Source: an uncultured Actinomycetes bacterium
GTDB taxonomy: Bacteria > Actinomycetota > Actinomycetes > Nanopelagicales > Nanopelagicaceae
NCBI GenBank assembly: GCA_903902965.1
Contig: CAIUXE010000016.1
Span: forward strand, 1-48,061
DNA length: 48,061 nucleotides
Direction of reading: 5' to 3'
In this document: positions 14,870-46,850 of the stretch, one piece after another
How positions within the stretch are numbered: position 1 is the stretch's first letter
How the letters are laid out: each line of letters opens with the position of its first letter
Program-made: the position numbers and the translations under genes
The notes under the pieces: model-generated
Database searches by the model: none
What the model saw: the letters and a program-made list of their open reading frames with translations, nothing else
What the model was told of the DNA's origin: nothing

Positions 14870-15202
14870 TTAAATCTCAATCTCATTTGAGAAGCATGAA
14901 TGAGAACCGGTATGACAGGCCCCACCTTTTTGATGTACGCGAAGCAATATGGCATCTCCATCACAATCTACGGATGCAGAAACCACTTCCTGAGTATTTC
15001 CAGATGTGGAGCCTTTGACCCACAATTCATTTCTACTTCTGCTCCAATATGTTGCTTTGTGACTTTCTAAAGTTTTTTCTAGCGCCTGACGGTTCATCCA
15101 AGCCAACATTAAAACTTCATTGCTCTCATCTTCTTGAACAACAACAGCCACAAGACCATTTTCACGGTCAAGTAAGTTCGCTAGATCGGCAGAGATGTTC
15201 AT
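14870..15202 (-). CDS. hisI: Phosphoribosyl-AMP cyclohydrolase
   Basis: Opens the adenine ring of PR-AMP, the third step of histidine synthesis, using Zn2+ and Mg2+. Only the cyclohydrolase domain is present, 110 residues; the HisE pyrophosphatase must be elsewhere. Metal ligands are in [20 protein letters not shown] and [24 protein letters not shown] and [19 protein letters not shown] are family hallmarks. I place the start at ATG 15202 because GGGGGAG lies nine bases before it. An ATG at 15220 overlaps that Shine-Dalgarno sequence and would add six residues. Confidence 0.96.
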
Positions 15203-16726: not shown

Positions 16727-17340
16727 TTTGCTATCCAATTCTCAATCAATTTTGCACCAGCATCCCCAGATTTCTCAGGATGGAATTGCATAGCGCTAAG
16801 CGGTCCATTTTCAACTGCAGCAATAAACTTTCCCCCGTAATTACTCCAACTGATTTTTGCTTTTTTCAATGGTGAATGCGGATCTTCTTCCCACTCCTGA
16901 GCTGCAAATGAGTGCACGAAATAAAATCTTTCCTTTTCTACGCCAGCAAAGAGATCGCTCTCTGGAGCGACATCAACCAAATTCCAACCCATATGTGGGA
17001 GTTTTGGATCTTGCAACTTGGTGACGGTTCCATTCCACTGTCCTAAACCTGGAGTTACAACTCCGTGCTCGTTTCCAAAGGAAAAAAGAGTTTGTGCGCC
17101 TACACAAATACCCAATGTTTGTAAATTCTTAGTCATGCGAGCATCGATAATTGCATCCGCTCGATGTTTGATTAGACCTTGCATGCAAGATGCGAAAGCC
17201 CCGACTCCAGGAATAACTAAACCGTCAGCATTAATGCATTTTTGAAAATCATTAGTCACTTCAACTTGATCGCCATGTCTTGAAAATGCACGCTGAGCAG
17301 ATTTAATATTCCCAGAACCATAATCCAGAATTGCTATCAA
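16717..17340 (-). CDS. hisH: Imidazole glycerol phosphate synthase, glutaminase subunit
   Basis: Class I glutamine amidotransferase giving ammonia to HisF. 207 residues. Oxyanion strand [11 protein letters not shown] at the N-terminus, nucleophile Cys79 in [11 protein letters not shown], and the His/Glu dyad in [12 protein letters not shown]. Starts at TTG 17340, overlapping the hisB stop as TTGA. The N-terminus matches the family exactly, so this rare start looks genuine. Confidence 0.96.
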
Positions 17341-17921
17341 AGAACGCCCTTAGTTGATGGAACTCCTGCCACGCCATCAAGCCTGACCGCATCACGTAGT
17401 GCTCGAGCAACAGCTTTAAATTGCGCTTCCATGACGTGATGAGCATTCCGTCCTTCTAAGACTCGAATGTGTAATGCAATGTGCGCTTCCGCAATTAAGG
17501 ATTCCCAGATATGACGCGTCAAAGTGGTGTCGTAAGTGCCTATCAATTCAACGATTTCAGGTTGACGATGCACTAAGTACGGTCTTCCAGAAAGGTCAAC
17601 AGCTGCGGTAACTAAAACTTCATCAAGTGGCACTGTTGCATCACCAAATCTCCTGATACCAACTTTGTCGCCGAGTGCTTCGCGTAAAGCTTGGCCGAGT
17701 GCCAAGGAAGTATCTTCAACGGTGTGATGTGAATCAACATCAACATCGCCTTTAGTAATTACTTTCAGGTCAAATCCGCCATGCTTACCCAATTGATTAA
17801 GCATGTGATCGAAAAAGGGAACTCCGGTTTCTATTTCAATCACGCCAGTTCCATCCAACTCCAATTCAACATGAACTGAAGACTCCTTAGTGGCGCGTTT
17901 TACAATCGCTTTACGGCTCAT
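17337..17921 (-). CDS. hisB: Imidazoleglycerol-phosphate dehydratase
   Basis: Dehydrates IGP to imidazole acetol phosphate. 194 residues, the monofunctional form without a HolPase domain. Manganese-binding histidines are in FFDHMLNQLGKHGGFDL and DSHHTVEDTSLALGQAL near residues 35-80, repeated in HIWESLIAEAHIALHI and GRNAHHVMEAQFKAVARAL. ATGA overlap with hisC upstream. Confidence 0.97.
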   Translation of the reverse strand: MSRKAIVKRATKESSVHVELELDGTGVIEIETGVPFFDHMLNQLGKHGGFDLKVITKGDVDVDSHHTVEDTSLALGQALREALGDKVGIRRFGDATVPLDEVLVTAAVDLSGRPYLVHRQPEIVELIGTYDTTLTRHIWESLIAEAHIALHIRVLEGRNAHHVMEAQFKAVARALRDAVRLDGVAGVPSTKGVL

Positions 17922-44758: not shown

Positions 44759-45201
44759 TCCTTTGCTCCTTTAACTTTTTTATCTTTACTTGTTAATTCA
44801 TTTACTTTTGGTTGATTTAGAATCAGGAAATCTGGGTTGCCACTAGGAACCATTCCTAGTAGTCGTGCTTTTTTCGCTAATGACTCAGGTGATGAGATCC
44901 GAGCCAAATTTTGAGTATTCGCTTCTTCAAGATCAGCTAAGTGAATTGCTTCGAATTTGAGTCGGTGCAACTTGATCGCATCTTGATTTAGCGCCAAATT
45001 AAGACCCATAACGGCAACTAATGTAAAAATCATCGCGCCGAAAATTATTGAATTGAATGCCGCTTTTGTTACTGACTTTCCTTCACTTGGGAGAAGGTCA
45101 GCAACCAGACGCAAAACTGGATCGGGCAATCTCTGCAGTCTAGGAATCGCGTTTGGTGAGATTTTTCGCGCTGGTGAGCTCTTAAGAGCGGTAATCGCCA
45201 T
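44755..45201 (-). CDS. ftsL: FtsL-like septum formation protein
   Basis: 148 residues, fast-evolving, identified mainly by position and topology: a basic cytoplasmic N-terminus with a Pro-rich stretch, one membrane helix near 46-70 (AAFNSIIFGAMIFTLVAVMG) and a helical extracytoplasmic segment (RLKFEAIHLADLEEANTQNL) that could form the coiled coil with an FtsB/DivIC partner. Ends in a Lys-rich tail. TAATG overlap with rsmH and ATGA overlap with ftsI. Confidence 0.85.
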   Translation of the reverse strand: MAITALKSSPARKISPNAIPRLQRLPDPVLRLVADLLPSEGKSVTKAAFNSIIFGAMIFTLVAVMGLNLALNQDAIKLHRLKFEAIHLADLEEANTQNLARISSPESLAKKARLLGMVPSGNPDFLILNQPKVNELTSKDKKVKGAKE

Positions 45202-46142
45202 TAGGCAGCCACTCCCCCAACTTTTTCAATTGCCCGCAAACGAACTGAGGTTGCGCGTGGGTTTTCAGAAATTTCTTGCTCTGATGCACTCTCACTTTGT
45301 CTAGTTAGCAAGCGGTAATCCGCTGGTGTTGGCTCAATCGGTAAACCGTGTGGAACTGAAGTTGTTGACACGGCAGTGAAGGACCTTTTAACAATGCGGT
45401 CTTCTAAGGAATGATAAGAAAGAACAACCATTCGACCATTTTGATTTAGAATATTTAAAGCAGCTGGAATTGCTCTTTCAAGTATTGAGATCTCATCATT
45501 GATAAAAATCCGCAACGCTTGAAAGGAACGTTTTGCAGGATGTCCACCAGTTCTACGAGTTGCAGCCGGAATGCTTTCGCGAATTACTTCGGCTAAACGA
45601 CTTGAATTTGTGAATAATTCAATTTCGCGTTCTTTGATTATTCGATCTGCAATTCGAGATGCAAATCGTTCTTCACCGTATTCACGGAAAATTCTTGCTA
45701 ATTCTTTACCGCCAAAAGTATTAACAACTTCAGCCGCTGTTACTCCATCTGTGGAATCCATGCGCATATCTAGCGGTGCATCTTGTGCGTAAGCGAATCC
45801 CCTTTCTGACTCATCAAGTTGCATTGATGAAACCCCTAAATCAAAAAGTATTCCGTCAACTCCGTTGTATCCAGCGGCAGCAATAACTTGTGGCATCTGA
45901 TCATAAATTGCGTGAACTAGTGTGATGCGTCCATCAAATTTTGCCAATCGAGTTTTAGCATGATCAATTGCGGTTAGATCGCGATCAATTCCAATTAAAT
46001 GAATATTTGGAAAGTGGGAAAGTAATTCGTATGAATGACCACCAGCACCAAGTGTTGCATCAACAACTAATGCGTTATTTTTTGTTAGCGCAGGAGAAAG
46101 CAGAGCAAGTGATCGCTCAAGTAATACTGGCTGATGTAACAC
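45201..46142 (-). CDS. rsmH: 16S rRNA m4C1402 methyltransferase
   Basis: N4-methylates C1402 in the ribosomal P site (formerly mraW). 313 residues from GTG 46142, preceded by AGAGGGGAG. HQPVLLERSLALL at the N-terminus, SAM motif VVDATLGAGGHSYELL, FDLGVSSMQLDESERGFAYA, PLDMRMD, TGGHPAKRSFQALRIFINDE and VVLSYHSLEDRIVKRSF. The 152-bp space before it contains a strong nested RNA structure. Confidence 0.97.
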   Translation of the reverse strand: MLHQPVLLERSLALLSPALTKNNALVVDATLGAGGHSYELLSHFPNIHLIGIDRDLTAIDHAKTRLAKFDGRITLVHAIYDQMPQVIAAAGYNGVDGILFDLGVSSMQLDESERGFAYAQDAPLDMRMDSTDGVTAAEVVNTFGGKELARIFREYGEERFASRIADRIIKEREIELFTNSSRLAEVIRESIPAATRRTGGHPAKRSFQALRIFINDEISILERAIPAALNILNQNGRMVVLSYHSLEDRIVKRSFTAVSTTSVPHGLPIEPTPADYRLLTRQSESASEQEISENPRATSVRLRAIEKVGGVAA

Positions 46143-46294
46143 TGCGCTCCCCTCTTTCTGGTCCTTCTAACTCCGCTTACTCCCTTGATCCACTAGCTCG
46201 AAACTTTGGACACCGCCGCCGGACGGATTGATCGGCGCCGGGGAAGGGGCGTCGATGCGCTATAGCTAGCCGCGGCAGTGACCGAAATTTCGAG
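46143..46294 (-). ncRNA. Structured leader RNA between mraZ and rsmH (mraW-motif-like)
   Basis: The transcript from the mraZ stop to the rsmH GTG can fold into three nested helices. The outer one is CTCGAAA / TTTCGAG (46294-46288 with 46203-46197). Inside it is CACTGCCGC / GCGGCGGTG, nine pairs including one G-U (46280-46272 with 46219-46211). Innermost is ATCGACGCC / GGCGCCGAT, eight of nine pairs (46256-46248 with 46239-46231) around an 8-base loop. The stretch is more GC-rich than its neighbourhood. A conserved cis-acting RNA called the mraW motif is described upstream of this gene in Actinobacteria. I propose this is that element or a relative, on position and structure only. Confidence 0.5.
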
Positions 46295-46726
46295 TTAGAA
46301 AAATCCTGGGAATACCTCCTCAGATACATCTGCGAATCCCTTTTCGCGATCTGCGAGGTAGGACTCCCAAGCGGTTGCATCCCAAATCTCAACGCGAGTA
46401 TTTGCGCCAATAACGACGCACTCTTTGTTGAGGTCGGCATAGGTACGAAGAGACGGGGGAATCGTCACTCGACCTTGCTTATCTGGAATCTCGTCATGTG
46501 CACCGGCAAACATCACGCGCATGTAATCGCGTGCAGATTTAGCGGTAACTGGGGCTTGGCCCATTGCTTCGGTAAGTGATGCAAACTCTTTTGCGGGCCA
46601 GACGTAAAGGCACCGCTCTTGTCCTTTGGTAATTACTAAGCCGGCAGCTAGTTCATCCCGAAAGCGGGCCGGAAGAATTACGCGTCCTTTTTCATCGAGG
46701 CGGGGTTGATAGGTGCCTAGAAACAC
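46295..46726 (-). CDS. mraZ: Transcriptional regulator MraZ
   Basis: Ring-forming AbrB-like DNA-binding protein that represses its own dcw operon. 143 residues from GTG 46726, with GGGGAG eight bases upstream. Two SpoVT/AbrB-like repeats each carry the DxxxR core: [15 protein letters not shown] near residue 11 and [16 protein letters not shown] near residue 82. First gene of the division cluster; its likely operator lies about 90 bp upstream. Confidence 0.97.
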
Positions 46727-46810
46727 TGGAATCTCCCCTTCTCCACTTTTTAAAAAGGTTTAGAACTCTTTACTCAAACCAACAGCGATAGAGCACAAAC
46801 TGCTGTATTA

Positions 46811-46850
46811 ATCCCCCACTTTACTCCACTTATCTCCACTGTCAACCACC
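46811..46850 (-). promoter_or_regulatory. mraZ promoter with 10-bp-phased MraZ-type boxes
   Basis: Minus strand: a perfect -35 TTGACA (46845-46840), 16 bases, then TAAAGT (46823-46818) as -10. Between and over these lie three direct repeats of AGTGG(A/G)G at exactly 10-bp steps, reading AGTGGAGATA, AGTGGAGTAA and AGTGGGGGAT (46840-46811). A weaker fourth, GGTGGTTGAC, begins at 46850. MraZ recognises short GTGG/TGGG-type direct repeats spaced by one helical turn, so these are very probably its autorepression sites. Confidence 0.75.

Follow-up and report, generated by a model that had tools for sequence, protein, structure and literature searches.

A divergent mraW-type hairpin between mraZ and rsmH of Nanopelagicaceae, with a loop complementary to the Shine-Dalgarno sites of the two flanking genes

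In a large bacterial class to which Mycobacterium and Corynebacterium belong, the mraW motif stands at the front of the dcw operon (division and cell wall). This motif was reported by Weinberg in 2010 (PMC2864571), is kept in Rfam as RF01746 and has been catalogued without a function since then. It has been detected as a transcript only in corynebacteria (PMC3890552, PMC5784534), and the element described here is a predicted RNA. The full-text literature that we searched, mostly without subscription papers, contains only catalogue mentions of the motif, with no mechanism and no published claim of a ligand. C-rich segments acting on G-rich sites of mRNAs are known from other systems. In Staphylococcus aureus, UCCCCUG in the icaR 3'-UTR pairs with the Shine-Dalgarno (SD) sequence of the same gene, UAGGGGG, and the pairing reduces translation and recruits RNase III (PMC3868564); in mycobacteria, the C-rich loops of 6C and B11 repress targets with G tracts (PMC10470900). 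We describe here a hairpin found in the window, by which we mean the whole analysed stretch of 48,061 nt, and compare it with these systems.

The locus and the structure of the hairpin

The mraZ gene (46295-46726) and the rsmH (mraW) gene for the 16S rRNA m4C1402 methyltransferase (45201-46142) are both on the minus strand, and the gap between them is exactly the 152 bp (46143-46294) given in the original prediction. The MraZ protein of the window has 99% identity to that of a Candidatus Nanopelagicaceae MAG from Lake Baikal, an acI freshwater actinobacterium, and the RsmH protein has 55–60% identity to RsmH of distant relatives. Some public records under the titles Fonsibacter, Bifidobacterium breve and Clavibacter also contain an mraZ with 80–90% identity to that of the window; these titles seem to reflect mislabelled MAGs or outdated names. 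The region upstream of mraZ contains three direct repeats with a 10-bp period, AGTGGAGATA-AGTGGAGTAA-AGTGGGGGAT (46815-46845, minus strand), which overlap a promoter-like TTGACA...TAAAGT and are present in most loci of the family; to judge from their sequence, they are likely to be the MraZ operator for autoregulation. We considered also the loop of the hairpin as a DNA-binding site of MraZ and rejected this, because GTGG repeats at 10-bp spacing are absent there and lie upstream of mraZ.

The hairpin as a whole occupies 46193-46298. It was assigned to the minus strand according to the orientation of the operon; the original prediction gave no strand, and counts of G-U against A-C were not decisive because the hairpin is almost palindromic. 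The predicted nested inverted repeats and 8-base loop could be located precisely. The 5' arm of P1, composed of the outer and middle helices (46298-46272), and its 3' arm (46219-46193) are 27 nt long and 81% complementary; the arms of the apical helix P2 (46256-46248 and 46239-46231) pair with one A.C mismatch and enclose the 8-nt loop CCUUCCCC (46240-46247), which is the candidate anti-SD; and the unpaired joint between P2 and the 3' arm of P1 (46220-46230) carries UCCGU, invariant in the family alignment. The minus-strand fold has an energy of -48.4 kcal/mol against -30.9 +/- 3.4 for shuffled sequences (z -5.1), and 0 of 200 shuffles folded as well. As had been predicted, the element starts at the end of mraZ, with its outer helix beginning inside the stop codon. 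The distance to the rsmH ribosome site, previously put at about 55 bases, should be corrected to about 40 nt, from the end of the helix at 46193 to the SD at 46152-46147. Three helices do exist, but they are not strictly coaxial as was proposed, because the middle and inner helices are separated by a small extra hairpin of 4 bp (46271-46257), which is specific to the window's genus. An alternative fold can also be drawn in which UUCUAACUC (46300-46292, at the mraZ stop) pairs perfectly with GAGUUAGAA (46173-46165, before the rsmH SD); we rejected it as a general feature because it is found only in part of this genus.

Rfam gave no match at gathering scores, mraW remaining below its cut-off of 50 bits. 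The covariance model of RF01746, by which the predicted mraW identity was to be checked, nevertheless aligns with the hairpin end to end (model positions 1-107) at 30.3 bits with a local E of 5e-4; the loop CUUCCCC(GG) is identical, and the position upstream of rsmH is as the motif requires. The same model has significant matches in 63 of 80 relatives, ten of them over the gathering cut-off, with scores up to about 40 bits in Nanopelagicaceae and over 50 in other families. We also built a family covariance model from 29 Nanopelagicaceae sequences; with it the element is recovered from 182 of 201 genomes of the family, those 29 sequences matching by construction, and from all 99 genomes of good quality. 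In the alignment of the 29 sequences, pairing is kept in 97.6% of cells, against 84.9% for shuffles and 31–56% for slid partners, and two-sided changes are present at 15 of 26 pairs, supplying the compensatory changes that had been proposed as a further check. The original prediction was to count as refuted by a lack of covariation together with a lack of a model match, and both results speak for it. Judged by sequence, the hairpin and the mraW motif are homologous, the hairpin belonging to a divergent branch missed by the curated model. In many family members a C tract (CCCCC) precedes UCCGU immediately and could be a second partner for G-rich SDs. A sequence that relatives carry in the P1 arm, CACCGCC, was considered as a mimic of 16S rRNA directed to RsmH and was rejected, being a 7-mer without conservation.

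Loop complementarity to the ribosome sites of mraZ and rsmH

In the window, both the rsmH SD (46147-46152) and the mraZ SD (46733-46738) read GGGGAG on the minus strand, and each is a 6-bp complement of the loop with one G-U. The rsmH SD of the family takes the forms GGGGAAG, GGGGGAG and GGGGAG, each of them a complement of the CUUCCCC loop; genera g9 and g14 and most of g17 are exceptions. Of the 83 distinct 5'UTR regions examined upstream of rsmH, 65 are predicted to form a duplex with the loop at -11.5 kcal/mol or lower; among the remaining family genes this holds for 17 of 738, and among controls whose SDs are equally strong for 11 of 74. The family loci share ancestry, so that Fisher values for these counts are not probabilities of independence. 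Controls were drawn from 20-kb stretches of family genomes. The bases after the GGGG run match the CUU of the loop in 65 of 74 rsmH SDs and in 14 of 82 controls, and the anti-SD of the ribosome does not need these following bases. We could not use mraZ as a neutral SD control, its SD being itself complementary to the loop.

A comparison of orthologous dcw-cluster genes between the window and 40 further genomes (41 Nanopelagicaceae loci in all) indicates that the complementarity in this family is specific to mraZ and rsmH: at least six contiguous loop-SD pairs are present for mraZ in 98% and for rsmH in 93% of loci, whereas the thirteen other cluster genes range from 0 to 22% (ftsZ 22%, mraY 20%, ftsL 14%, murC 11% and the rest at most 7%). 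The arrangement known from icaR, a C-rich motif complementary to SDs in the same predicted mRNA, is thus found here for two genes. In 74 family loci the loop is predicted to be unpaired with a probability over 0.99 and the SD with about 0.5, and the linker is A-rich. Because the loop is invariant, covariation between loop and SD cannot be demonstrated.

The window taken singly is less selective than the family. Among its 40 genes, mraZ and rsmH rank 4th and 6th for loop complementarity with their 6-bp matches, and they are outscored by ftsZ, a hisI-like gene and ftsL. The loop complementarity of ftsL (14%) is limited to the window's genus, and the candidate of an operon-wide target, suggested by ftsL and ftsZ in the window, was rejected because it is not conserved beyond this genus. 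The hisI-like gene and a hisB-like gene (14870-15202 and 17337-17921, minus strand) have SDs, GGGGGAG and AAAGGGG, with strong complementarity to the loop.

Outside Nanopelagicaceae, the rsmH SD has at least 6 bp to the loop in only 2–5% of loci, though the loop is kept, and a role of the loop in pairing with the rsmH SD throughout the class is therefore not supported. The mraZ SD is complementary in 47–80% of these loci, a value confounded by the very strong SD of mraZ. In many high-GC actinobacteria the RNA is separated from rsmH by a small ORF of about 50–70 codons that has an apparent membrane segment, and a conserved GAAGGGTCGA-ATG stretch precedes this ORF.

The loop in genomes with and without mraZ

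CUUCCCC was found within 420 nt of the mraZ stop in all 104 usable mraZ-bearing loci, including genomes without a significant Rfam match. MraZ itself was found in 0 of 81 genomes of one large-genome genus of the same class, probably Streptomyces; the same MraZ query matches 25 of 36 genomes of another sample. In the mraZ-less genus, CUUCCCC has been lost at 9 of 11 rsmH loci and kept at two. At most of the loci lacking CUUCCCC, the base helix GGCCUCCUCCCGCUC...GAGCGGGCGGGGACC persists and the loop is shortened to GACGCUUCCGGCGCC or a similar sequence; at three the full base helix is missing as well. Because a pattern search of a sample of about 80 genomes found the loop beside rsmH in about 16 mraZ-less genomes among the matches listed, the constraint on the loop is relaxed without mraZ but not abolished. 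This decay connects the loop with mraZ, not with rsmH. In the same genus a decayed MraZ operator and the P1 helix persist upstream of rsmH, and by their sequence these remnants resemble what the deletion of an intervening mraZ would leave.

Possible functions and comparison with known systems

The RNA, its conservation and covariation, the exposure of its loop and its gene-specific complementarity to SDs are computed results. On this basis we favour, with a probability of about one half, the reading that the loop acts as an anti-SD limiting translation of mraZ and/or rsmH, and we infer pairing in the cell, repression and a means by which the repression is relieved. Against this reading weigh the invariance of the loop, the lack of a complementary rsmH SD outside the family, the modest matches in the window, the exceptional genera, the shared ancestry of the family loci and the mraZ-less genomes that keep the loop. 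The long stem in the mraZ-rsmH transcript would present the exposed C-rich loop CUUCCCC, which may pair with the G-rich rsmH SD downstream or, alternatively, with the G-rich mraZ SD upstream in the same or another copy of the mRNA. With either pairing, fewer ribosomes would load on one of the genes or on both, and RNase III might attack the loop-SD duplex. The 5' arm of P1 has its first bases in the mraZ stop codon, and a ribosome that terminates there could conceivably melt P1 and thus couple the two genes. A wider reading, on which the odds are rather against us and which we put forward tentatively, is that the mraW motif is an anti-SD device throughout Actinomycetes, with the mraZ SD as ancestral partner in a 3'UTR-to-5'UTR feedback on MraZ, and that it was extended to rsmH in Nanopelagicaceae while the loop decayed once mraZ was lost.

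Conservation of the loop could instead reflect a site at which loop and stem bind a protein or ligand, such as RsmH, MraZ or a ribosomal factor, to regulate the operon, the G-rich SDs being a coincidence of strong ribosome sites. Such a site would agree with the further conserved unpaired bases UCCGU and with the retention of the loop in mraZ-bearing Actinomycetes irrespective of their rsmH SD. We regard it as less likely than an anti-SD loop, as the SD complementarity in the family is restricted to mraZ and rsmH and is greater than for SDs of equal strength. The long helix at a gene border, the strong covariation of the outer helix with free sequence and a 5' end mapped inside the motif in C. 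glutamicum (PMC3890552) would also suit an element for RNA processing or stability, i.e. an RNase III substrate or decay barrier which sets the mRNA levels of mraZ against rsmH. This appears improbable to us, since the loop would be incidental, leaving unexplained both its 7-nt invariance and its decay with persisting P1 in mraZ-less genomes.

Two further explanations fare worse. In C. glutamicum and C. diphtheriae, rsmH has a start site within the motif or downstream of it, as an internal rsmH promoter or other DNA element would have it, but changes preserving the pairs across 29 sequences and the lack of a promoter-like match in the mraZ-rsmH gap make this very improbable. We give still less credence to an intrinsic terminator or attenuator: a stable hairpin does stand between both genes, but it has no U tract and the gap contains 0 terminator-like sites.

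Returning to the anti-SD reading, the RNA is linked to MraZ dosage, not to a metabolite, by the match of its loop to the ribosome sites of just the two neighbouring genes and by the decay of this loop at most sampled loci of a genus that lost mraZ, and the question of the function of the mraW motif becomes addressable by a reporter experiment with two mutants. Both the SD-pairing hypothesis and the decay of the loop without mraZ appear to be unreported in the literature that we searched.

The present element resembles the described mraW motif in its location in the mraZ-rsmH gap, the full-length alignment with the model, the CUUCCCC loop and the long base helix. It differs in the sequence of this helix, GGYCAYYGCC / GGCRGUGNCC here and GGUCUCCACCC / GGGGACC in the motif, in the extra conserved UCCGU joint and in the complementarity of the rsmH SD to the loop. 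As in the 3'-UTR of icaR, a C-rich motif lies downstream of a regulator gene and is complementary to the G-rich SD of that gene; unlike icaR, the element is inside an operon, forms a structured and conserved hairpin, has two flanking targets and is known here from sequence alone. With 6C and B11 it shares a C-rich hairpin loop set against G tracts of mRNA 5'UTRs in Actinomycetes, but both of these are free sRNAs that act in trans and carry poly-C loops, while the element described here lies in cis.
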